A stretch of 33,237 bases of DNA from Pseudomonadota bacterium (GTDB taxonomy: Bacteria > Pseudomonadota > Alphaproteobacteria > Acetobacterales > Acetobacteraceae): assembly GCA_021801465.1 (NCBI GenBank), contig JAJYXY010000252.1:1-33237 (forward strand), read 5' to 3'. Positions 1 through 16,552 of the stretch are shown piece after piece. How positions within the stretch are numbered: position 1 is the stretch's first letter; each line of letters begins with the position of its first letter. The notes beneath the pieces were generated by a model, which was given only the letters and a program-made list of their open reading frames with translations, did not search any database and was not told the DNA's origin. A program made the translations under genes and the position numbers.

Positions 1-1
1 C

Positions 2-334
2 GGGCTTTCGCGCATGACCGACATGATGCTGACCGGCCGGGTTTTCAGCGCCGAGGAGGGTCAGGCGATCGGACTCTCGAATTACCTCGTCGATGATGGC
101 GCCGGGCTCGCGCTGGCCCTCGATCTCGCGGCGAAAATCGCCAACAACGCGCCGCTTACCAACTTCGCGGTGTTGCACGCCTTGCCGCGCATCGCCGAGA
201 GTGACCGCGAAGCGGGTTTTCTCGCCGAAAGCCTGATGGCGGCGATCGCTGCTGCGGATCACGAGGCCAAATCTCGTCTGCGGGCGTTTCTCGAAGGGCG
301 GGCGGCGAAGATCGCGCCAAGTCCGCCTTCATGA
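2..334 (+). CDS. Enoyl-CoA hydratase/isomerase family protein, C-terminal part (5' end outside window)
   Basis: Frame is open to the left edge (GLSRMTDMMLTGRVFSAEEGQAIGLSNYLV...), with the crotonase-type C-terminal segment 'LTGRVFSAEEGQAIGL'; immediately upstream of a CoA ligase. Confidence 0.85.
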   Translation, partial: GLSRMTDMMLTGRVFSAEEGQAIGLSNYLVDDGAGLALALDLAAKIANNAPLTNFAVLHALPRIAESDREAGFLAESLMAAIAAADHEAKSRLRAFLEGRAAKIAPSPPS

Positions 335-392
335 GCGATCTCGGCACGCGCTGAGCGGGCGCACGGGCAACGACCCAAACGGAGGAAACAAA

Positions 393-2201
393 ATGGCGAT
401 TTCGGTGGTCCCGGTCCGGCTCGCGGTGCCTGAGATGGCGATCACGCGGGACGCCGATGGCACCATCCGGGCGCGGGCAAAAACGCCGCTTGGCCCCTAT
501 CCGGCGCGGCTGACGGCGCGGCTCGAACACTGGGCGGAGCTCGCGCCTGATCGCGTCTTTCTTGCCGAGCGCACACAAGACGGCGCCGGCTGGCGGCGCA
601 TCACCTATGCCGAGACACTGGCGGCGGTCACGGCGCTCGGCCAGGCGCTGCTCGATCGCGATCTCTCGCCCGATCGGCCGATCGCCATTCTTTCTGGCAA
701 CGGCATCGATCACGCGCTTCTCGGCCTTGCAGCGCAGCATGTCGGCGTGCCGTACGCGCCGATTTCGGTCGCCTATTCGACCTCCGGCGGGGATTTCGCG
801 CGGCTTCGCCACATCCTCGCGCTGCTCACCCCGGGTCTCGTCTTTGCCGAGGACGGCGCCCGCTTTGCCCCAGCCTTGGCGATCGCGGCGGCGGGCAGCG
901 AGATCGTCGTCTCGCGCAACCCGCCGCCCGGGCGCGCGATTTCGCTCTTTGCCGATCTCCTCGCAACCCGCTCTGGTGCGGCGGTCGCGGCGGCGGCCGA
1001 ACGCGTCGGGCCAGAGACGATCGCGAAATTTCTGTTCACCTCGGGCTCGACCGATCTTCCCAAAGGGGTCATCAACACCCAGCGCATGCTGTGCAGCAAT
1101 CAGGCGATGATCCTCTCGGTGATGCGCTTTCTAGGCGACGAACCGCCAATGCTGCTCGACTGGCTGCCGTGGAACCACACCTTCGGCGGCAACCATAATT
1201 TCGGTATCGCGCTTTATAATGGCGGCTCGCTTTACATCGATGACGGGCGGCCGGTGGCGGGCGGGATCGCCGCCACGTTGCGCAATCTCCGCGAGATCGC
1301 CCCCAACGTTTATTTCAACGTCCCCAAGGGCTGGGAGGAAATCGCGCTCGCCTGCCGCGACGATGCGGCGCTGCGGGCGCGATTCTTCAGCCGGGCAGCG
1401 TTGTTTTTCTATGCCGGGGCGTCGCTTGCGCAGCATGTCTGGGATTTGCTCGATGACCTCGCGATCGCAACGATTGGCCGGCGTGTCACCATGCTGACCG
1501 GGCTTGGCGCGACCGAAACCGCGCCCTTCGCGCTTTGCTGTCATCCCTCGCACGCACGCTCGGGGATGGTCGGCGTGCCGGCGCCGGGTGTCGAACTGAA
1601 ACTCGCCAAGGTCGAAGGAAAATGGGAAGCGCGCCTGCGCGGGCCGAGCATCACGCCGGGCTATTGGCGGGATGCGGCGAAAACCCGTGCGGCGTTCGAT
1701 GAGGAGGGATTTTATCGCACCGGTGATGCGCTCGACTGGATCGATCCCGAAACGCCCGCGTACGGGTTTCGTTTCGATGGCCGGATCGCCGAGGATTTCA
1801 AGCTTTCGAGCGGCACCTGGGTGCATGTCGGGCGGCTCCGGGCGCTGTTGCTCGAACGTCTCGCGCCGCATGTCCGCGATGTCGTGATCGCCGCCCCCGA
1901 TCGTGATGCGATCGCGGTGCTCGCGCTTCCCGAACGCGCCGAATACGCAGACGACGCGGCCATCCGCGCCGAGATCGCGCGTCGGCTTGCCGCGTTTGCG
2001 CGCGACTATCCGGGAAGCTCGATGCGGGTCGCGCGGCTTGCGTTTCTCACCGATCCGCTCTCTGTCGATGCCGGTGAGATCACCGATAAAGGCTCGCTCA
2101 ATCAGCGTGCGATCCTGCGCAACCGCCCCGCGCTGATCGATCGCCTCTATGCCGAGCCCGCATCCCCGGACATCATCACCGTTGAGGAATTCGCTGCATG
2201 A
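393..2201 (+). CDS. fcs: Feruloyl-CoA synthase-like AMP-dependent acyl-CoA ligase
   Basis: 602 aa; strong SD (ggagga) before ATG; AMP-binding motif FTSGSTDLPKGV, LTGLGATETAP, YRTGDA, C-terminal GEITDKGSLNQRAIL typical of the feruloyl-CoA synthase branch. Confidence 0.8.
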   Translation: MAISVVPVRLAVPEMAITRDADGTIRARAKTPLGPYPARLTARLEHWAELAPDRVFLAERTQDGAGWRRITYAETLAAVTALGQALLDRDLSPDRPIAILSGNGIDHALLGLAAQHVGVPYAPISVAYSTSGGDFARLRHILALLTPGLVFAEDGARFAPALAIAAAGSEIVVSRNPPPGRAISLFADLLATRSGAAVAAAAERVGPETIAKFLFTSGSTDLPKGVINTQRMLCSNQAMILSVMRFLGDEPPMLLDWLPWNHTFGGNHNFGIALYNGGSLYIDDGRPVAGGIAATLRNLREIAPNVYFNVPKGWEEIALACRDDAALRARFFSRAALFFYAGASLAQHVWDLLDDLAIATIGRRVTMLTGLGATETAPFALCCHPSHARSGMVGVPAPGVELKLAKVEGKWEARLRGPSITPGYWRDAAKTRAAFDEEGFYRTGDALDWIDPETPAYGFRFDGRIAEDFKLSSGTWVHVGRLRALLLERLAPHVRDVVIAAPDRDAIAVLALPERAEYADDAAIRAEIARRLAAFARDYPGSSMRVARLAFLTDPLSVDAGEITDKGSLNQRAILRNRPALIDRLYAEPASPDIITVEEFAA

Positions 2202-3421
2202 GCCAAGGTCTTTTCGCATCCTGGCCGGATGTCTGGCTGTTCGATGGCGCGCGCACGCCCTTCGTCGATTACAATGGCGCGCTCGCTTTGGTCTCGCCGA
2301 CCGATCTCGGGATCAAGGTGGCGCGTGAGGCGATCGCGCGCGCCGGGATTACGCCGGAGGCGATCGGCAGCGTGGTCGCGGGTTCGGTCGCGCAGGCGAG
2401 TTTCGATGCCTATATGCTGCCCCGTCATATCGGGCTCTATGCCGGCTTGCCGCAGGCGACACCGGCGCATCTCGTCCAGCGTGTCTGCGGCACCGGGATC
2501 GAAGCTCTGATGCAAGGGGCGGACGCCATCACCCATCGCGGCCTGGATGCGGCGCTTTGCGTCGGCTCTGAAAGCATGAGCCGCAACCCCATCGCCGCCT
2601 ACACCCATCGCGGCGGGTTTCGCATGGGGCAAGTCGAATTCAAGGATTTTCTTTGGGAGGCACTGCTCGATCCGGCGCCGGGCAAGACCATGGGCGAAAC
2701 CGCCGAGGCCCTGGCGCTGCGCTATGACATTCCGCGTGCCGAGGTTGATCGGTTCGCTGCCCAAAGTTTTGCACGCGCGATCGCGGCTGCGGAATTTCGC
2801 GCCGGCGAGATCGTTCCCGTGGTGAGCGAGAGTTTTGCCCGCGACGGTCTTCATGATCGCGGCATTCGGCTCGCGCGCGGGGTTGCCGAGGTGAGCCTCG
2901 ACACCCATGTGCGGCCATCGCCACGCGCCGTGCTCGAAAAATTGCCGCCGGCGTTCGGGGGTGTGCAGACCGGCGGCAATAGTTCGGCGATCGTCGATGG
3001 CGCAGCGGCAGCGGTGATCGGGCGGAAATCGCTCGCCGTGCGACGGCCGCTTGCGCGCCTGGTCGCCGGGGTTGCGATCGGCTGTGCGCCCGAGATCATG
3101 GGGATCGGCCCGGTGCCGGCGATCGAGACGCTGCTTGCGCGCACGGGGCTTTCGCTCGATGCGATCGGCCGCGTTGAGATCAATGAGGCGTTCGGCGCGC
3201 AGGTGCTCGCTTGCGCCCGCGCGCTCGAACTCGATGAAGCGCGGCTCAACGTCAATGGCGGCGCGATCGCGATCGGCCATCCGCTGGCCGCGACCGGGCT
3301 GCGCCTGACGCTGACGCTGGCGCGCGAAATGCAGCGCGCGGGGGTGCGCTTCGGCATCGCCTCGGCCTGCATCGGCGGCGGCCAAGGTATCGCCCTTTTG
3401 GTCGAAAATGCCGAGGTTTGA
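2198..3421 (+). CDS. Thiolase family protein (acetyl-CoA acetyltransferase-like)
   Basis: 407 aa; ATGA overlap with the upstream ligase; thiolase Cys motif VCGTGIEAL, GHPLAATG His motif, C-terminal CIGGGQG. Confidence 0.88.
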   Translation: MSQGLFASWPDVWLFDGARTPFVDYNGALALVSPTDLGIKVAREAIARAGITPEAIGSVVAGSVAQASFDAYMLPRHIGLYAGLPQATPAHLVQRVCGTGIEALMQGADAITHRGLDAALCVGSESMSRNPIAAYTHRGGFRMGQVEFKDFLWEALLDPAPGKTMGETAEALALRYDIPRAEVDRFAAQSFARAIAAAEFRAGEIVPVVSESFARDGLHDRGIRLARGVAEVSLDTHVRPSPRAVLEKLPPAFGGVQTGGNSSAIVDGAAAAVIGRKSLAVRRPLARLVAGVAIGCAPEIMGIGPVPAIETLLARTGLSLDAIGRVEINEAFGAQVLACARALELDEARLNVNGGAIAIGHPLAATGLRLTLTLAREMQRAGVRFGIASACIGGGQGIALLVENAEV

Positions 3422-3427
3422 GCCGGC

Positions 3428-3853
3428 ATGTTCGTCAATACCATGACCCGCCTCATCGAATGGGGCGATTGCGACCCGGCCGGCATCGTGTTCTATCCGC
3501 GCTATTTCGCGATGTTCGATACCGCGACCGCATTGTTGTTTCAGGCGGCGCTAGGGATCGACAAGGCGGCGATGCTGGCGCGCTTTGGCATTGCCGGTTT
3601 CCCGATGGTCGACACGCGCGCGCGGTTTCTTACGGCGCTGAGTTTCGGCGCCACCGTTCGTATCGAGTCGTCCGTCACCGCCCTCGGCCGCTCGAGTTTC
3701 GGCATTCGTCACGCGCTGTTCGACGGGGAGGCGTGTGCCGTCGAAGGCGAGGAGACGCGGGTCTGGACCCGGCGCGATCCCGAGGGGCCGAAGCCCCTCC
3801 GGGCCGCGCCTATTCCTGATGAGGTGAGGGCGTGCCTCGCGCGGTCGCGGTGA
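3428..3853 (+). CDS. Acyl-CoA thioesterase, 4-hydroxybenzoyl-CoA thioesterase (hotdog) family
   Basis: 141 aa; 'IEWGDCDPAGIVFYPRYFAMFDTA' matches the 4HBT active-site signature; 6 bp after the thiolase stop. Confidence 0.88.
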   Translation: MFVNTMTRLIEWGDCDPAGIVFYPRYFAMFDTATALLFQAALGIDKAAMLARFGIAGFPMVDTRARFLTALSFGATVRIESSVTALGRSSFGIRHALFDGEACAVEGEETRVWTRRDPEGPKPLRAAPIPDEVRACLARSR

Positions 3854-4334
3854 GCTGCGCCAGAAGCGCGAGCAGGGTTGGCTTGCCGGCCTCGCCGAGC
3901 GCGAGGGCAAGCCGCTGCTCATGGTGCGCGATCGCCGCCTCGGCCCGCGCGAGCAGGGTTGTGCCGTTTGCGGTCAGGAAGAGGGCGAAGGCGCGCCGAT
4001 CGCTCTCCATCCGGTCGCGGGTGACGAGGCCGCGCGCTTCCAGCCCGTCGAGCAGGGGGACGAAATTGGTGCGCTTGATCCCGAGCGCCTCGGCCACTTG
4101 GCTCGCGCGGATGCCTGGGTTGGCGCGCAGCACCAAGAGCACCGAATATTGCCCGGGGCGGAGATCGAGTTCGGCGACGGCGCGGTGGAAATCCTGGAAA
4201 ACCGCCACCTGCGCGAGCCGCAGGGCAAAGCCGATATGCTCTGGCAAACTACCGAGGGAAATCTCGGCCGCGGCGTCAGAGCCGCTTTTGGCGGCGGTTT
4301 TGTCCGTCCGTCGTGTTTCGACCACATCCGACAT
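3810..4334 (-). CDS. MarR family transcriptional regulator
   Basis: 174 aa; winged-helix pattern LDLRPGQYSVLLVLRANPGIRASQVAEALGIKRTNFVPLLDGLEARGLVTRDRMESDRRAFALFLT; divergent from the downstream SBP gene. Confidence 0.9.
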   Translation of the reverse strand: MSDVVETRRTDKTAAKSGSDAAAEISLGSLPEHIGFALRLAQVAVFQDFHRAVAELDLRPGQYSVLLVLRANPGIRASQVAEALGIKRTNFVPLLDGLEARGLVTRDRMESDRRAFALFLTANGTTLLARAEAAIAHHEQRLALALGEAGKPTLLALLAQLTATARGTPSPHQE

Positions 4335-4409
4335 GCGGGCATATTATCGGCGCCTTCGCCGCAAGGCGAGGGGCCAAAAACACCGCCATACAAGGGGGGC
4401 GCACGCGTC

Positions 4410-5609
4410 ATGAAAAAATATCTATATCTTGTCTCGGCTTTCCTGTTTTTGTCGGCTTTCGCCGAGGCCGCGGAGCCGCTCAAGCTCGGGGTCCTGAATG
4501 ATCTTTCCGGTGTCTATGCGGATTATCAGGGGCGCGGCTCGGTGATCGCGGCCGAAATGGCGGCCGAAGATTATGGCGGCAGCGTCATGGGGCGGAAAAT
4601 CGAGATCATCGCCGGCGATCATCAGAACAAGCCCGATATCGGCCTTGCGATCGCGCGCCGCTGGTTTGACACCGAAGGAGTGGATGCGGTGCTTGATGTG
4701 CCGAATTCGGCGATCGCGCTCGCTGTCGCCGATCTCGCGCGCGAGAAGAACAAGGTCTTCATCGGCTCGGGCGCCGGCACCGCGTTATTGACCGGCGCCA
4801 AATGCTCACCCAACACCATCCATTGGACGTTCGATACCTGGGAGGTCGGGCACGCGTTGGGGCGCGCTGTCGTCGCCGAAGGCGGCAAGAAATGGTTTTT
4901 TCTCACCGCCGATTACACTTTCGGCTATGATCTCGAGACCTCGATGACGGAGGCGGTGCGTGCCGCCGGTGGCGAGGTGATGGGTTCCGTCCGGCATCCG
5001 CTCGGCACCAGCGATTTTTCGAGCTATCTTCTGCAGGCGCAGAGCTCGGGCGCGGATGTGCTCGGCCTTGCCAATGCCGGCGGCGATACCGCGACCGCGA
5101 TCAAGGAGGCGCATGAATTCGGCCTTGCGCGCAAGATGAAAATGGCCGGCCCGATCGTCAACATCAACATCATCGAGGCGATCGGCCTCGCCGACGCCGA
5201 AGGGCTTCTCGCGGTGACGCCCTTCTACTGGGACATGACCCCCGCAACCCGCGCCTTCGCCGAGCGCTTCAGCGCCCGCCATCCCCAACACATCATGCCA
5301 AATGACATGCAGGCCGGGGTTTATGCTGCGACCCTCGCCTATCTCAAGGCGGTCGCGGCGCAGGGCGGCAAGAGCAGCGATGGCCGCGCGGTGGTCGCCG
5401 AGATGAAGAAGAAGCCCGCCGAAGATCCGCTATTCGGCGAAAGCGTGATCCGCGCCGATGGCCGGGTTATGCACCCGGTCTATCTCATGGCCGCGAAGAC
5501 CCCGGCGGAAAGCCATGGCAACTGGGATTTCTTCAAATTACTCGCGACCGTGCCGGCCAATCAGGCCTACCGCCCGCTCGCCGAGGGGCATTGCCCGCTG
5601 GTGCCGTAA
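4410..5609 (+). CDS. ABC transporter substrate-binding protein (Liv/Peripla_BP_6 type, aromatic-acid-like)
   Basis: Start set at ATG 4410, which gives signal peptide MKKYLYLVSAFLFLSAFAEAAEPLKLG; the ORF-track start at 3921 runs antisense through marR. Body 'LGVLNDLSGVYADYQGRGSVIAAEMAAEDYGG' is LivK-like. Confidence 0.88.
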   Translation: MKKYLYLVSAFLFLSAFAEAAEPLKLGVLNDLSGVYADYQGRGSVIAAEMAAEDYGGSVMGRKIEIIAGDHQNKPDIGLAIARRWFDTEGVDAVLDVPNSAIALAVADLAREKNKVFIGSGAGTALLTGAKCSPNTIHWTFDTWEVGHALGRAVVAEGGKKWFFLTADYTFGYDLETSMTEAVRAAGGEVMGSVRHPLGTSDFSSYLLQAQSSGADVLGLANAGGDTATAIKEAHEFGLARKMKMAGPIVNINIIEAIGLADAEGLLAVTPFYWDMTPATRAFAERFSARHPQHIMPNDMQAGVYAATLAYLKAVAAQGGKSSDGRAVVAEMKKKPAEDPLFGESVIRADGRVMHPVYLMAAKTPAESHGNWDFFKLLATVPANQAYRPLAEGHCPLVP

Positions 5610-9057: not shown

Positions 9058-10203
9058 CTACAAGCTGCGCGCGATGAGCTCCTTCATGATTTCGTTGCTA
9101 CCGCCATAGATCCGTTGCACCCTGGCATCGGTGAAGCGATGGGCGATCGGATATTCCGCCATATAGCCATAGCCACCGAAAATCTGCAGGCAGGCATCGA
9201 TCACCTTGCCCTGCATCTCCGTCGTCCAGTATTTCGCCATCGCCGCCGTCGCGACATCGAGCGTTCCGGCGAGCAGGCGCGTTATGCACTCCTCGAGAAA
9301 GGCGCGCGCGACCTCGGCCGTGGTTTTCGCCTCGGCGAGGACGAAGCGGGTGTTTTGAAACTCGAACAAGCTCTTGCCGAAAGCGCGGCGGGTTTTGGCA
9401 TGGGCGATGGTCTCAGTGACCGCCGCCTCCATCGCCGCGACCGCGCCGACCGCGATCACCAGGCGCTCTTGCGGCAATTGCTGCATCAGTTGCACGAAGC
9501 CGCGATCAGGCTCCCCGCCCAGCAGATTTTCCGCCGGCACCACGACGTCGTCGAAAAAAAGCTCGGATGTATCTTGCGCGTGTTTGCCGATTTTTTCGAG
9601 ATTGCGGCCGCGCCGGAAGCCGTGCGCGCCCGCCGTCTCGACGGCGAGCAGGGAAATGCCCTTGGCCCCGGCGTCTGCCCGCGTCTTGGCGGCGACGATG
9701 ACGAGGTCGGCGAGCTGGCCGTTGCTGATGAAGGTTTTCTGACCGTTTATGACATAGCCATCGCCGACCCGCCGCGCTGTGGTGCGGATCCCTTGCAGAT
9801 CAGACCCGGCGTCGGGTTCGGTCATGGCGATCGCGGCGATCATCTCGCCTTGCGCCATGCGCGGCAGCCAGCGGCGCTTTTGCGCCTCGGTGCCATAATG
9901 GAGGAGATAGGGCGCGATGATGGCGTTGTGCAGCGAGATCGCGAAATCACCGAAGCCGATCGCCGCCAGCTCCTCGATCAGGATCGCCTCATGGCGAAAA
10001 TCGCCGCCGCCGCCGCCGAATTCCGCCGGCATGCTGGCGCAAAGAAGGCCCGCCGCACCGGCCCGCAGCCATGCCTCACGCGCGACCATGCCGGCCTGGC
10101 GCCAGGCGGGAATATGCGGCACCACTTCGGCGGCGAAAAACCGCCGCACACTGTCACGAAACAAGGTGAGTTCCGCGGCCTGTTCGTTGGTGATATTATC
10201 CAT
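9058..10203 (-). CDS. Acyl-CoA dehydrogenase
   Basis: Start set at MDNITNEQAAEL (10203), 382 codons; AMTEPDAGSDLQGIRTTA, YVINGQKTFISNG, C-terminal FGGYGYMAEYPIAHRFTDARVQRIYGGSNEIMKELIAR. Confidence 0.93.
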   Translation of the reverse strand: MDNITNEQAAELTLFRDSVRRFFAAEVVPHIPAWRQAGMVAREAWLRAGAAGLLCASMPAEFGGGGGDFRHEAILIEELAAIGFGDFAISLHNAIIAPYLLHYGTEAQKRRWLPRMAQGEMIAAIAMTEPDAGSDLQGIRTTARRVGDGYVINGQKTFISNGQLADLVIVAAKTRADAGAKGISLLAVETAGAHGFRRGRNLEKIGKHAQDTSELFFDDVVVPAENLLGGEPDRGFVQLMQQLPQERLVIAVGAVAAMEAAVTETIAHAKTRRAFGKSLFEFQNTRFVLAEAKTTAEVARAFLEECITRLLAGTLDVATAAMAKYWTTEMQGKVIDACLQIFGGYGYMAEYPIAHRFTDARVQRIYGGSNEIMKELIARSL

Positions 10204-10210
10204 GGCGCCC

Positions 10211-11392
10211 TCAGAGCCGCTCGATGATCGTCGCGTTCGCCATGCCGCCGGCTTCGCACATTGTCTGCAAGCCATAGCGCCCGCTGCCACGGCCCAACGC
10301 GTGCAGCATCGTCGTCATCAGCCGCGCGCCCGACGCCCCGAGCGGATGGCCGAGGGCGATCGCGCCGCCGAGCGGATTGAGTTTCTCGGGATCACCGCCG
10401 ACCGCCTTGGCCCAGGCAAGCGGCACCGGGGCGAAAGCCTCGTTGACTTCGACATGGTCGATATCGTCGAGTTTCATCCCGGCTTTACGCAACACCCGCT
10501 CGGTCGCGGGGATCGGCGCCGTCAGCATCAGCAGCGGGTCGTCGCCACAGACATCGAAGCCGACGAAGCGTGCGCGCGGTATCGCGCCGAGGCGTGCGGC
10601 GGCTTCCTCGCTCATCAGCAAAAGCGCGCTCGCGCCATCGGTGATCTGCGAGGAATTGCCGGCGGTGATCGACCAGCGGATTTCAGGAAACCGTTCGCTG
10701 TAATGCCGGCTTTCGAAAGCGGGGCGAAGCGCCGAAAGCCCCTCTTGCGTGGTATCGGGGCGGATGGTTTCGTCTTGCGTCACCAAAACATTGTCGATGG
10801 CGATGGGGACGATCTCGGCGGCGAACGCGCCGCTCGCGCGGGCGCGTGCGGCGCGCTGATGCGAGGCGGCGGAATAGGCATCCATCGCCGCGCGCGAAAG
10901 ACCATAGCGTGCCGCGACCAGTTCCGCCGAGACGCCTTGGTGGATCAGCCCCGGCGCATAGCGTTCGCTGACCAGCGGGCCGACCGGATCGCGGTCGAGG
11001 CGGGCCGAGCCGATCGGCACCCGGCTCATCGATTCCACGCCACCGGCGATGACGATGTCATAGACGCCGGCCTTGATCCCTTGGGCGGCGAAATGGATCG
11101 CCTGCTGGCCAGAGCCGCACATGCGGTCGATCGTGGTCGCGGGGACATGTTCGGGGTAGCCGGCGGCGAGCCAGGCCATCCGCCCGACAGTCGAGGATTG
11201 TTCGCCAACCCGGCTGACGCAGCCGATGATCACGTCATCGACGCTGCCGGGGTCGAGATCGTTGCGCTCAATCAGCCCCTTGAGCACGGCGGCGAGCAGA
11301 TCGACCGGGTGGAGCGCGGAAAGCGCCCCCCCTGCCTTGCCGCGCCCCATCGGTGAGCGAACGGCATCGATGATCACGGGCTCTCGTGACAT
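10211..11392 (-). CDS. Acetyl-CoA C-acyltransferase (thiolase)
   Basis: 393 aa; DRMCGSGQQAIH, GGVESMSRVPIG, GHPLGASGARLM, MCEAGGMANATIIE. Confidence 0.93.
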   Translation of the reverse strand: MSREPVIIDAVRSPMGRGKAGGALSALHPVDLLAAVLKGLIERNDLDPGSVDDVIIGCVSRVGEQSSTVGRMAWLAAGYPEHVPATTIDRMCGSGQQAIHFAAQGIKAGVYDIVIAGGVESMSRVPIGSARLDRDPVGPLVSERYAPGLIHQGVSAELVAARYGLSRAAMDAYSAASHQRAARARASGAFAAEIVPIAIDNVLVTQDETIRPDTTQEGLSALRPAFESRHYSERFPEIRWSITAGNSSQITDGASALLLMSEEAAARLGAIPRARFVGFDVCGDDPLLMLTAPIPATERVLRKAGMKLDDIDHVEVNEAFAPVPLAWAKAVGGDPEKLNPLGGAIALGHPLGASGARLMTTMLHALGRGSGRYGLQTMCEAGGMANATIIERL

Positions 11393-11471
11393 GGCGGTGT
11401 CTCCTCCGAGTTTTTCCCGCCGAGCGTCGCAAGCTCACACTCGGCGGTCAATCTCGGCGAGGCAAGCAGGC

Positions 11472-12572
11472 TCACATTTCGTGATAATTGCCGTCGTGCC
11501 AGACATAGAAGACGTAATCCGGCTTGGTCACGTCGCCCTTGGCATCGAAGCTGATCGGGCCGAGCACGCTGTCCCACGGGCCGCCCGATTTAAGCGCGGC
11601 GGCGACTTTTTTCGGATCGACCGTGCCGGCCTTCTGCGCCGCTTCCGCCCAGATCTGCACCGCAGCGTAGGAATAGAGCACGTAACCCTCGGGATCGACA
11701 CCCTTGGCCTGGAATTCCTTGACCACCGCCGCCGCCGCCGGGCGTTTGCGCGGGTCGGAGGCGAAGGTCATCATCGTCCCCTCGCCGGTCGGGCCAGTGA
11801 TCTGCCAGAATTCCGAGGTGACCAGGGCATCGCCGCTGATCAGCGTGACGTTCATCCCCTGTTCCTTGGCCTGGCGGATGATCAGCCCGGCCTCGGTTTG
11901 ATAGCCGCCGAGATAGATCACGGTGATATTGGCGGCCTTGAGCCGGCTGACGAGGGCCGAGTAATCGCGCTCGCCCGGCACGTAAGGCGTATAGATCGTC
12001 TCCTTCACGCCCGCCTGGTTCATATATTTCCTGGTTTCATCGGCGAGGCCTTTGCCGTAAGCGGTGTTGTCGTGGAGGATCGCGATATTCTGGCCCTTGA
12101 AATGGCTCGCGATATATTCGCCAGCGACCTGGCCCTGCTGGTCGTCGCGGCCGCAGACGCGAAACACGTTCCAGCCGCCATTATCGGTGAGCGCGGGGTT
12201 TGTGGAGGCGGGCGAGATTTGTAAAATCCCCTGTTCGAGATAGACCTTGCTCGCCGGGATCGAGCTCGAGGAGCAGAAATGCCCATCGACGAAAACGACG
12301 CCCTTGTCAGCGAGCTGATTGGCGATCGAGACCGCCTGTTTCGGGTCGCAGGCATCGTCCCCCTCGGTCAGCGCCAATTGCTTGCCGAGCACGCCGCCAT
12401 GGGCGTTGATATCCGCCACCGCCTGCTCTGCGCCCTGCTTCATCTGCGCGCCGAAGGTCGCGTTTGAGCCGGTCAATGGCCCGGCGGAGGCGATCTGGAT
12501 TTGCGCCATGGCGGGGGCGGCGAAGGCCGATGCCAGCATGGCGGTGCCAGCCAGTAACAGAATTTTCCTCAT
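11472..12572 (-). CDS. livK: Branched-chain amino-acid-type ABC transporter substrate-binding protein
   Basis: Start at MRKILLLAGTAMLASAFAAPAMAQ (signal peptide); IQIASAGPLTGSNATFGAQMKQGAEQAVADINAHGGVLG; follows livF on the same strand. Confidence 0.92.
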   Translation of the reverse strand: MRKILLLAGTAMLASAFAAPAMAQIQIASAGPLTGSNATFGAQMKQGAEQAVADINAHGGVLGKQLALTEGDDACDPKQAVSIANQLADKGVVFVDGHFCSSSSIPASKVYLEQGILQISPASTNPALTDNGGWNVFRVCGRDDQQGQVAGEYIASHFKGQNIAILHDNTAYGKGLADETRKYMNQAGVKETIYTPYVPGERDYSALVSRLKAANITVIYLGGYQTEAGLIIRQAKEQGMNVTLISGDALVTSEFWQITGPTGEGTMMTFASDPRKRPAAAAVVKEFQAKGVDPEGYVLYSYAAVQIWAEAAQKAGTVDPKKVAAALKSGGPWDSVLGPISFDAKGDVTKPDYVFYVWHDGNYHEM

Positions 12573-12625
12573 CAGCGTGATCTCCCTTGATTGCGAGAAA
12601 CTATCGGGGCCAAGGCCTGCACCGC

Positions 12626-13344
12626 TCAATGCCCCCCTTCGAGATAGGCCGCGCGGATTTCCGGTCGCGCCAACAATTCCGCCCCCGGCCCAGACATGGT
12701 GATCACGCCGTTGACCAAAACATAGCCCCGATGGGCGAGTCTCAGCGCCTGAAAAGCGTTTTGCTCGACGAGGAGGACGGTAAGCCCGGTTTCGCGGTTG
12801 AGCGCGCGGATCGCCTGAAAAATCTGCCGAACGATGAGCGGAGCGAGGCCGAGGCTCGGCTCGTCGAGCAAGAGGAGGCGCGGGCGCGCCATCAAGGCCC
12901 GCCCGATCGCGAGCATCTGCTGCTCGCCGCCCGAAAGCGTGCCGCCGCGTTGGCTCTGGCGTTCATCGAGGCGCGGAAAGAGGGCAAAGACGCGGGCGAT
13001 ATCGGCGTCATAGTCGCGATAGCCGGCGCTTTCCGCCCCCATGATCAGGTTTTCGCGCACGCTCATGCGCGGAAAAATCCGCCGCCCCTCGGGCGCCTGA
13101 GCGATGCCACGGCGCATGATGAGATGGGTCGGCAATGTCGTGATGTCCTCGCCATCATAAACGATTTGGCCGCTGCGCGCCCGTGGCTGGCCGCAGAGGG
13201 TCATCATCAGCGTCGATTTGCCCGCGCCATTGGCGCCGATCAGGGTCACGATCTCGCCCTCGGTCACGGTGAGATCAACGTTTTTGAGCGCCTGCACCGC
13301 GCCATAAAACGTATTGACGCCGGCGAGCGCGAGCAGCGGCCGGC

Positions 13345-13348
<4 letters not shown>
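12626..13348 (-). CDS. livF: Liv-type ABC transporter ATP-binding protein
   Basis: 240 aa; Walker A GANGAGKST, LSGGEQQMLAIGRALM, LLLLDEPSLGLAP. Confidence 0.93.
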
Positions 13349-14186
<838 letters not shown>

Positions 14187-14187
<1 letters not shown>

Positions 14188-15461
14188 CAGCCGCGCCCCT
14201 CGGCGATCATCGCCGCCGGAATGGCGCCGGCGTTGCGACGAAGCGTGACCGAGGGTCTGCGCTCGGTCACCAGCCCGCGCGGGCGGAGCACCATCATCAC
14301 CACCAAAGCGAGGCCGAAAATCAGCATGCGGTAATCAGCGAGCGGGCGGAACATCTCCGGCCCGCCGATCATCACCAGGGCGGCGAGCACGACCCCGAGC
14401 TGGCTCCCCATGCCGCCCAGGACGACGATCGCGAGCACGGTCGCGCTTTCCATAAAGGTAAAGCTCTCGGGGCTGATGAAGCCTTGGCGGGTGGCGAAAA
14501 AAGCACCCGCGAAGCCGCCGAAACAAGCACCGACGGCAAAGGCGGTGAGCTTTGTCGTGGTGATGTTGATGCCGAGCGAGCGGCAGGCGATTTCATCCTC
14601 GCGGAGCGCCTCCCATACCCGCCCGAGTGGCTGGCGGCGAAGGCGCAGCGTCACCCAATTGGTGAGGAGGGCGAGAACGAGAATAATATAATAGAGAAAA
14701 ATTTGCCGCTGCATCGGCGAGGGGGCGAGGTGAAAGAAACCGGCGAATGTTCCTGGCTCATCGCTCATGGTGAAGCGAAGCCCAAACAGGGTCGGGCGCG
14801 GTATCCCGGAAATTCCGTTCGGCCCGCCGGTCAGTGACACCCAATTGAGCAGCACGACGCGGATGATCTCACCGAAAGCAAGGGTGACGATGGCGAGGTA
14901 ATCGCCGCGCAGACGAAGAACCGGAAAGCCGAGCGTAATCCCCCACAGCGCGGCGAGCGCGCCCGCGGCTGGCAGGCACGACCAGAAGCCAAGCCCGGTA
15001 TTTTCCGCGATCAAGGCATAGGAATAGGCGCCAACAGCATAAAACGCGACATAGCCGAGATCGAGCAGCCCGGCGAGACCGACGACGATATTGAGCCCCC
15101 AGCCGAGCATGACATAGGTGAGCACCAAAACGCCGAGATCGATCGTCGCGCGGTTCGCGAACCACGGCATCAGGAGGGCGGCGGCGAGAAGGGCGGGGAC
15201 GAGATAGGGGCCAAGGCCGGCAAAAGCGCGCCCGATCCGGCCCACGCCCGCGTGCTCTGGCGGGCGCCGTGCCTGCCACAGACGAACGAGGAGCCGGAGC
15301 ACGAAGACCGCCCCCACCAGGGCTGCGACCGCGAAGGGCCGCGGCACCAGCACGATCCCATGGACGCCGACCGTAGTTTGAAGCCCGACCATCGGCGCAA
15401 ACAAACCCAAAGCGACCAAAGCCGAGAGAAACGCATCGAGAAGGGGGGCGCGCTGGCTCAT
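14187..15461 (-). CDS. livM: Liv-type ABC transporter permease
   Basis: 424 aa multi-span protein; LNIVVGLAGLLDLGYVAFYAVGAYSYAL, FPVLRLRGDYLAIVTLAFGEIIRV; 1-bp overlap with livG. Confidence 0.92.
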
Positions 15462-16372
15462 ACCTTCTCCACGTCTGTCCGCCCCAGCAACCCGGTCGGC
15501 AGGAACACCAAGGTGATCGCGAGAATGGAAAACGCCGCAACGTCTTTATATTGGACGGAGAAATAGGCCGACCAGAACGTCTCGATCAGGCCGATCAAAA
15601 GCCCGCCCAGCACCGCCCCCGGCAACGAACCGATGCCGCCGAGCACTGCGGCGGTGAAGGCTTTCACCCCGGCGACGAAGCCGATGTAAAAATCGATCGC
15701 GCCGTAATAGAGGAGAAACATCAGCCCCGCGACGGCGGCGAGTGCGGCGCCGATGACGAAGGTGAGGCCGATCGTCTGATTGATATCGATGCCAAGCAGG
15801 CTCGCCATCTTGAGATCCTGCTCGCAGGCGCGCATCGCGCGCCCGAGCGGGGTTCGCGTAACCAGCCAGGTGAAGACGCCAAGACAAAGCACCGTGGTTA
15901 AGGCGATGGCGATCTGCATCCAGGAAAGCTGCACCGCGAACCCCTCGCCGTGGCTCAGAACCAGACCGCCGGGCAAAAGCGGTGCCAGCGGCTTGACGCG
16001 CGCCCCTTGCGATACTTGCGCGAAATTCTGCAACGTGATCGACATACCGATGGCGCTGATCAAGGGCGCCAAGCGAAACGAGCCGCGCAATGGCCGATAG
16101 GCGACGCGTTCGATGGTCCAGCCATAAAGTGCTGCGAGTGCTGCGGCGAAAACCAGGGTGATCGCCAAGGCCAGCGGCACGGCGGTAATGCCGAGCGAGG
16201 CGAGCCCAGATAGCGCGATCAGGGAGAGAAAGGCGCCGATCATGAAAACATCGCCATGGGCGAAATTGATCATGCCGATGATGCCATAGACCATCGTGTA
16301 GCCGACGGCGATCAGGCCATAGATCATGCCGAGCGTGATGCCGTTGATCAGCTGCTGCAATGCATAAGCCAA
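15458..16372 (-). CDS. livH: Liv-type ABC transporter permease
   Basis: LQQLINGITLGMIYGLIAVGYTMVYGIIGMINFAHGDVFMIGAF; likely TTG start at 16372 (the ORF-track start 16453 is probably too long); ATGA overlap with livM. Confidence 0.9.
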   Translation of the reverse strand: MAYALQQLINGITLGMIYGLIAVGYTMVYGIIGMINFAHGDVFMIGAFLSLIALSGLASLGITAVPLALAITLVFAAALAALYGWTIERVAYRPLRGSFRLAPLISAIGMSITLQNFAQVSQGARVKPLAPLLPGGLVLSHGEGFAVQLSWMQIAIALTTVLCLGVFTWLVTRTPLGRAMRACEQDLKMASLLGIDINQTIGLTFVIGAALAAVAGLMFLLYYGAIDFYIGFVAGVKAFTAAVLGGIGSLPGAVLGGLLIGLIETFWSAYFSVQYKDVAAFSILAITLVFLPTGLLGRTDVEKV

Positions 16373-16552
16373 GCCCGCCCCCCTTCTTTGCCCGTCAGCG
16401 CGCGATGCGCACCACCGACTCTCTTTGACCGCTTCCCTCATACACCAAAGCATGCCGCATGCCAGCTATGCAACAGGGCGCCGCCCAGGGGCGGTCGAGG
16501 GGCGGCCGAGGTGGGCGCCGGTCGCGAAGAGGTGATGATGGCGGACGCGGTA

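Follow-up and report, generated by a model that had tools for sequence, protein, structure and literature searches.

The window (the entire stretch of 33,237 nucleotides analysed here) begins with a tight plus-strand run of genes for a crotonase (ECH), an Fcs-like ligase, a thiolase, and a 4HBT thioesterase; next come a MarR gene in convergent orientation and a gene for a Liv-type binding protein (SBP). The features are as follows:

2..334, plus strand: 3′ part of a CouA-type ECH gene (from the ORF list; the complete gene has 282 codons)
393..2201, plus strand: acyl-CoA ligase of the feruloyl-CoA-synthase type, 602 aa (best family PRK12582)
2198..3421, plus strand: Aat-like thiolase of the aryl β-keto-CoA clade, 407 aa (Pfam, identity, tree)
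3428..3853, plus strand: hot-dog (4HBT) thioesterase, 141 aa (Pfam, solved relatives)
3810..4334, minus strand: MarR-type repressor of the CouR group, 174 aa (best solved relative 6c28)
about 4410..5609, plus strand: Liv-type periplasmic binding protein of the 3i09 family (Pfam, conserved alongside the cluster)

The ligase and thiolase genes are coupled by an ATGA overlap, and the convergent MarR and thioesterase genes share 44 bp at their 3′ ends. All ORFs of the cluster are full length and free of internal stops (the ECH after joining contig C96, see below), and the domains AMP-binding, Thiolase_N/C, 4HBT/4HBT_2, MarR, Peripla_BP_6, and ECH_1 have been confirmed with Pfam. The gene run given in the preliminary description, including the ATGA coupling, is thus borne out by both ORFs and Pfam.

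The same description pointed out that the ECH gene is cut at the left edge and that an extension might reveal a vdh or a dehydrogenase gene. The missing part lies on contig C96 of the same assembly, whose end overlaps window positions 1-206 (206 bp, 1 mismatch). The joined ECH gene starts at C96 position 5327, i.e., 515 bp to the left of the window edge, stops at window position 334, and encodes 282 aa. It is preceded on C96 by genes for a PhoR-like kinase, a lipoprotein, and others; neither vdh/ALDH nor a 3-hydroxyacyl-CoA dehydrogenase (HACDH) gene was found upstream of ECH on this joined contig. A promoter/terminator scan 5′ of ECH found nothing. The upstream alignment of five congeners bears a conserved CATAACTAT...TTGAC block and no convincing CouR operator palindrome.

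The best solved relative of the ECH is 3hin (308 bits, 59% identity), followed by DmdD (4izb, 218 bits). Among protein families, it matches PRK08150 with 374 bits (cutoff 232), and the HCHL family PRK09120 is missing from its 25 top-scoring families. Both catalytic glutamates are kept: one corresponds to DmdD Glu121, which is Ala in 4izc, and the other belongs to ALPEG. At the first of these positions HCHL carries Ser; it also has Tyr signatures, and the window ECH bears no Tyr at those sites. By its family match and active-site residues, the protein is a CouA-type hydratase crotonase and not an HCHL.

The ligase is assigned to the feruloyl-CoA-synthase family. PRK12582 is its best family by far, 721.9 bits vs 100 bits for the next one; the score is below the family cutoff of 777, as is that of the Acinetobacter Fcs (664.9). 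Ligase relatives in plasmid records are annotated as “feruloyl-CoA synthase”. The proposal that this enzyme is not a medium-chain fatty acyl-CoA synthetase therefore holds, and the reading of the cluster as medium-chain fatty acid metabolism has been rejected on the same wide margin. The MarR protein has CouR (6c28) as its closest solved relative, with 122.9 bits vs 48.4 for the next, and a congener's MarR is 48% identical to 6c28. CouR-type regulators respond to hydroxycinnamoyl-CoA (PMC4737184). These partners bear on the view that the genes serve some unrelated acyl-CoA metabolism, acting on medium-chain fatty acids or on a DMSP-type acid via a DmdD-like hydratase, a view suggested by DmdD ranking second among the solved relatives of the ECH. 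It is very improbable in light of the ligase type, the CouR-type regulator, and the pairing of ECH with FCS in 61 of 63 related loci (see below). Since the ligase, the MarR, and the neighbours are all of the hydroxycinnamate type, the DMSP/DmdD reading of the ECH has been rejected.

The thiolase shares 53–100% identity with members of the cluster clade and at most 36% with other thiolases; in the tree, it falls into the Aat clade together with thiolases adjoining fcs. Thiolytic cleavage of the β-keto-CoA by Aat is an already described route of ferulate degradation (route i, PMC3546705), with which the window shares the ligase, hydration, and thiolysis to acetyl-CoA and aroyl-CoA. The same Aat-like clade also has members next to HCHL and ALDH genes in four genomes, all from a single family, so the thiolase taken alone does not prove the route and has been dropped as sole proof of β-oxidation. 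In those operons, it accompanies HCHL and ALDH, whereas in the window its companions are a hydratase-type ECH and a thioesterase. The latter scores below the YbgC/FadM cutoffs, and its Asp16 takes the place of Asp17 in the alignment with 4-hydroxybenzoyl-CoA thioesterase (1bvq, 55.7 bits). It can thus be described as a hot-dog family member with an equivalent of the catalytic Asp17; in the proposed route, it would act on aroyl-CoA.

About 100 related gene clusters were collected for a comparison that speaks for the β-oxidative reading, and the counts refer to the 63 fully flanked named loci with a CouA-type ECH. Besides FCS (61), these loci contain SDR/3HCDH (53), thioesterase (38), ALDH (2), and HCHL (0). 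Among 20 HCHL control loci, by contrast, ALDH is present in 17, and SDR/3HCDH and thioesterase in none. The Fcs-HCHL-Vdh operon (on an Acinetobacter plasmid, L079, and in HCHL loci L205-L211) has the ligase family in common with the window but carries HCHL and ALDH where the window type has a hydratase-type ECH, dehydrogenase, and thioesterase.

The association of thiolase with thioesterase, suggested earlier for the window, recurs in the related loci: a thioesterase gene is present in 15 of 17 loci with thiolase vs 1 of 22 with a CouO-like amidohydrolase only. This split fits an aroyl-CoA product of the thiolase and a free-acid product of the amidohydrolase. The Fisher test of this contrast ignores shared ancestry; in a phylogenetic pairing test, which has low power and is not significant, 3–4 of 5 pairs agree and none disagree. 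The complete set ECH-FCS-THL-SDR-TE forms one run in six relatives (L044, L040, L106, L107, L110, and L145), and in several other loci an annotated amidohydrolase takes the place of the thiolase. With annotated relatives (L076, L077) as references, no amidohydrolase match was found in the loci of the window genus (L036-L039).

The whole run from ECH through ligase, thiolase, thioesterase, and MarR to SBP is kept in four congeneric genomes with 68–100% identity. HCHL is absent from the six congeneric genomes, their ALDHs are generic only (at most 36% identity), and none lies beside the cluster in the genus. All six possess pcaH, and four have a near-full pobA; one congener, G004, has neither the ligase nor pobA. 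VanA was not found in the genus, a result that shows little, the query being a C-terminal fragment of an Acinetobacter protein used with no positive control.

Most related clusters include a 3-hydroxyacyl-CoA dehydrogenase gene, while none was found in the cluster of the window, a gap that counts against the β-oxidative reading. A stand-alone SDR orthologue (about 60%) occurs in five congeners; it was not found in the window's own 87%-complete assembly, where generic HACDHs are present. As G004 has this SDR without the ligase, the SDR is not dedicated to the pathway. The dehydrogenase is probably encoded elsewhere, the likeliest source being the stand-alone SDR orthologue, or else a generic HACDH.

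The genes present, their families and catalytic residues, and the conserved neighbourhood lead us to infer, with a probability of about 0.72, that the cluster is a CouR-controlled operon for the CoA-dependent β-oxidative removal of the C2 side chain from hydroxycinnamates to give 4-hydroxybenzoate, with a dehydrogenase acting in trans. The substrate is most likely p-coumarate. The ligase would convert the hydroxycinnamate to hydroxycinnamoyl-CoA, which the CouA-type ECH would hydrate to 3-hydroxy-3-arylpropionyl-CoA. A 3-hydroxyacyl-CoA dehydrogenase from elsewhere would oxidize the latter to the β-keto-CoA, to be cleaved by the Aat-type thiolase into acetyl-CoA and aroyl-CoA, and the 4HBT thioesterase would release free 4-hydroxybenzoate, of which PobA- and Pca-type enzymes are possible users. 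A route of this kind is not a new idea, having been known or proposed before; the cluster adds another member. The cou genes of Rhodococcus jostii RHA1 (CouL ... CouO) share with it CoA ligation, β-oxidation of the side chain, an aromatic acid as the product, and a CouR-like MarR (PMC4737184), but they end with the amidohydrolase CouO, which yields the free acid, instead of the thiolase and thioesterase.

The same logic of reactions would apply to another arylpropanoid, either cinnamate or 3-phenylpropanoates desaturated by an acyl-CoA dehydrogenase (ACAD) such as that at 9058-10290. β-oxidation of 3-phenylpropanoids has been described in Aromatoleum (PMC9765128), where 3-(4-hydroxyphenyl)propanoate is converted to 4-hydroxybenzoyl-CoA, and both the window and some of the related loci contain an ACAD gene. 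Compared by description, the A. aromaticum genes EbN1_C30520-70 resemble the window in aryl-propanoid β-oxidation to 4-hydroxybenzoyl-CoA and linked ABC uptake, but differ in the TetR-type regulator PprR and the saturated substrate (PMC9765128). The ACAD of the window, however, is encoded on the opposite strand in a unit of its own that includes another thiolase and a Liv transporter, ACAD is not among the genes adjoining the cluster in congeners, and the ligand of CouR-type regulators argues for a hydroxycinnamate; cinnamate or a 3-phenylpropanoate is therefore an improbable substrate.

The preliminary description compared the layout with couAB/couR of Rhodopseudomonas palustris. This parallel is closer than first thought because the ECH, the ligase, and the MarR are of the CouA, CouB, and CouR types, with the ECH beside the ligase in both. 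It also counts against β-oxidation, as R. palustris CouAB is reported to form p-hydroxybenzaldehyde and vanillin by a non-β-oxidative route (PMC7997838); in the same paper, a kinetic model did better without free aldehyde intermediates. By analogy, the window ECH might hydrate its substrate and cleave it by a retro-aldol reaction to hydroxybenzaldehyde and acetyl-CoA, with an unlinked ALDH completing the route and the thiolase and thioesterase being accessory or serving a side flux. The 59% identity of the ECH to 3hin, the R. pseudopalustris locus consisting of ECH-FCS-TE with CouR, the presence of Aat-like thiolases in HCHL/ALDH operons, and the generic ALDHs of the genome are all compatible with this. 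Such a course is nevertheless unlikely, given that ALDH adjoins the cluster in no genome of the window genus and in only 2 of the 63 related loci, that most of these loci possess dehydrogenases and β-keto-CoA cleaving enzymes, and that the ECH is devoid of the HCHL signature residues.

A possible, still tentative generalization of the β-oxidative reading is that CouA-type crotonases are all β-oxidation hydratases whose operons swap two endings, one with thiolase and aroyl-CoA thioesterase, the other with a CouO-type amidohydrolase. If true, the aldehyde route published for CouAB of R. palustris would need re-examination. The comparison makes the CouAB assignment directly testable. The two modes could be told apart in genomes by a simple rule, HCHL plus ALDH vs CouA-type ECH plus dehydrogenase plus either thiolase/thioesterase or amidohydrolase, useful when annotating the catabolism of lignin-derived aromatics and when picking enzymes that avoid toxic aldehydes.

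The Rhodopseudomonas locus differs from the window in being without a thiolase gene. In R. pseudopalustris (L081), the thioesterase gene follows the ligase gene, as in the window, and Liv-type transport genes lie nearby. The window SBP, unlike that locus, has no permease genes next to it; it belongs to the 3i09 family and is conserved with the cluster.

At the left end of the window, the ORF list and Pfam bear out the gene run given in the preliminary description:

2-334, plus strand, tail of ECH (a CouA-type crotonase)
393-2201, plus strand, ligase of the feruloyl-CoA-synthase type (FCS)
2198-3421, thiolase (THL), with an ATGA overlap with the ligase
3428-3853, 4HBT thioesterase (TE)
3810-4334, minus strand, MarR
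4410-5609, Liv-type binding protein (3i09/3n0w family)

The assembly (311 contigs, 87% complete; the window is its contig C95) breaks inside the ECH gene. The end of contig C96 (locus L009) overlaps window positions 1-206 by 206 bp with one mismatch, as expected of a strain-variant bubble, and the join gives a complete ECH of 282 aa. Left of ECH, C96 carries genes for a PhoR-like kinase, a lipoprotein and others; neither vdh nor a 3-hydroxyacyl-CoA dehydrogenase is among them, so that the earlier observation of no vdh holds after leftward extension. The identical run in identical order is found in 4/5 congeneric genomes; one congener, G004, lacks the ligase. A block, CATAACTAT...TTGAC, located upstream of ECH (C96, about 5255-5285) and conserved before the operon in five congeners, is a possible promoter or operator. 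The Liv-type binding protein is an orphan in the window genus, having no adjoining permease or ATPase genes, and stays with the operon in several genomes (L036-L041, L046, L109, L145).

The ligase scores 721.9 bits against PRK12582 (cutoff 777) and 100 bits against the next family, in agreement with its earlier designation as Fcs-like, and its relatives are annotated as feruloyl-CoA synthase. The Fcs of an Acinetobacter plasmid (L079), encoded beside the hydratase-lyase of the aldehyde route (HCHL) and an aldehyde dehydrogenase (ALDH), also belongs to PRK12582 (664.9 bits). ECH exceeds the PRK08150 cutoff (374 versus 232 bits); its best solved relative is 3hin (308 bits), followed by DmdD (4izb, 218 bits) and by ordinary hydratases (about 117 bits). 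3hin is identified as the Rhodopseudomonas protein by its 94% identity to the R. pseudopalustris locus, whose MarR is 83% identical to CouR (6c28). Aligned with DmdD, the window ECH retains both Glu residues, that of GGGLELA, turned to Ala in 4izc, and that of ALPEG; in HCHL the first of these positions is Ser, and Tyr stands at sites where this ECH lacks it. The window MarR best matches 6c28 (122.9 bits; next 48.4), and the thioesterase 4-hydroxybenzoyl-CoA thioesterase 1bvq (55.7 bits, catalytic Asp aligned).

Gene neighbourhoods were compared for 80 named loci retrieved with an alignment of ECH proteins headed by 3hin, a sample biased to Bradyrhizobium and Comamonadaceae, neighbours being scored by fixed tblastn thresholds. 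The 63 loci with enough flank contained a ligase in 61 cases, an SDR or 3HCDH (candidate 3-hydroxyacyl-CoA dehydrogenases) in 53, a thioesterase in 38, a CouO-like amidohydrolase in 28, a thiolase in 17, ALDH in two and HCHL in none. Among 20 HCHL loci sampled evenly across the phylum as a control, ALDH was present in 17, a ligase in nine and a thiolase in four, with SDR/3HCDH and thioesterase at 0/20 each. Thus, the two crotonase types are markers of two different gene sets. Full ECH-FCS-THL-SDR-TE sets exist elsewhere (L040, L044, L106, L107, L110 and others), and the window genus seems to have all of these genes except SDR.

The thioesterase accompanies the thiolase in 15/17 loci and occurs in 1/22 amidohydrolase-only loci (Fisher value 8e-8, ancestry ignored); when pairs were drawn from a tree to allow for ancestry, 3-4 of 5 agreed and none disagreed, too few for significance. 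Such pairing would make chemical sense because thiolysis leaves an aroyl-CoA needing hydrolysis, while the RHA1 amidohydrolase CouO gives the free acid directly (PMC4737184; PMC9618137). Both endings occur together in L113, L116, L140, L143, L146 and L149.

The operon is predicted to perform beta-oxidative side-chain removal, with a probability of 0.72; conflicting evidence holds the figure there. CouAB of R. palustris is reported to yield the aldehydes from p-coumarate and ferulate (PMC7997838, with reference to Pan 2008 and Hirakawa 2012). In the same article, the fit improved when a kinetic model left out free aldehyde intermediates, a result its authors took as a sign of substrate channelling. 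The window thiolase groups with thiolases from hydroxycinnamate clusters (53-100% identity, 306-706 bits; all others 163 bits or less), and in four genomes of a single family members of this clade adjoin HCHL and ALDH; hence the route cannot be read from the thiolase alone. The Rhodopseudomonas locus examined, L081 (R. pseudopalustris), is ECH-FCS-TE, without SDR. Neither it nor L082-L105 (mostly Bradyrhizobium, most of these with SDR), which share the CouA-type ECH-ligase with thioesterase, has a thiolase or amidohydrolase near ECH-ligase; the C-C cleaving enzyme is absent from these clusters.

The dehydrogenase missing from the operon could be supplied by an SDR with about 60% identity to those of the clusters, whose gene lies outside the operon in 5/5 congeners. 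The one neighbourhood inspected, that of G001, shows it by itself, flanked by gyrB/parE-type and EPSP-synthase-type genes. This SDR did not turn up in the window's own 87%-complete assembly, where generic 3-hydroxyacyl-CoA dehydrogenases are present. HCHL is absent from all six genus genomes searched, and their ALDHs are generic (36% identity or less). pcaH is above its cutoff in 6/6. The pobA-type gene (497-508 bits, cutoff 538.7) comes close to full length in four of them (G000, G001, G002, G005) and is a partial gene in G003; G004, the congener without the ligase, has none. This pattern speaks for a main line through 4-hydroxybenzoate, and thus for p-coumarate; a VanA search of the genus, run without a positive control, gave no match.

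The route itself is already described, as Aat (beta-ketothiolase) thiolysis (PMC3546705), beta-oxidation of 3-phenylpropanoids in Aromatoleum (PMC9765128) and beta-oxidative deacetylation in RHA1 (PMC4737184), and the operon is a further example of that kind. The comparison contributes three points: CouA-type ECH and HCHL belong to separate gene sets, operon endings appear to be exchanged for one another, and the role assigned to CouA becomes open to a doubt that can be tested.

Three clusters (L109, L125, L045) each carry two tandem feruloyl-CoA-synthase-type ligases. A second acyl-CoA unit in the window (9058-16453, minus strand) encodes an acyl-CoA dehydrogenase, a thiolase distinct from that of the operon (33% identity) and all parts of a Liv-type ABC transporter, including a separate binding protein.
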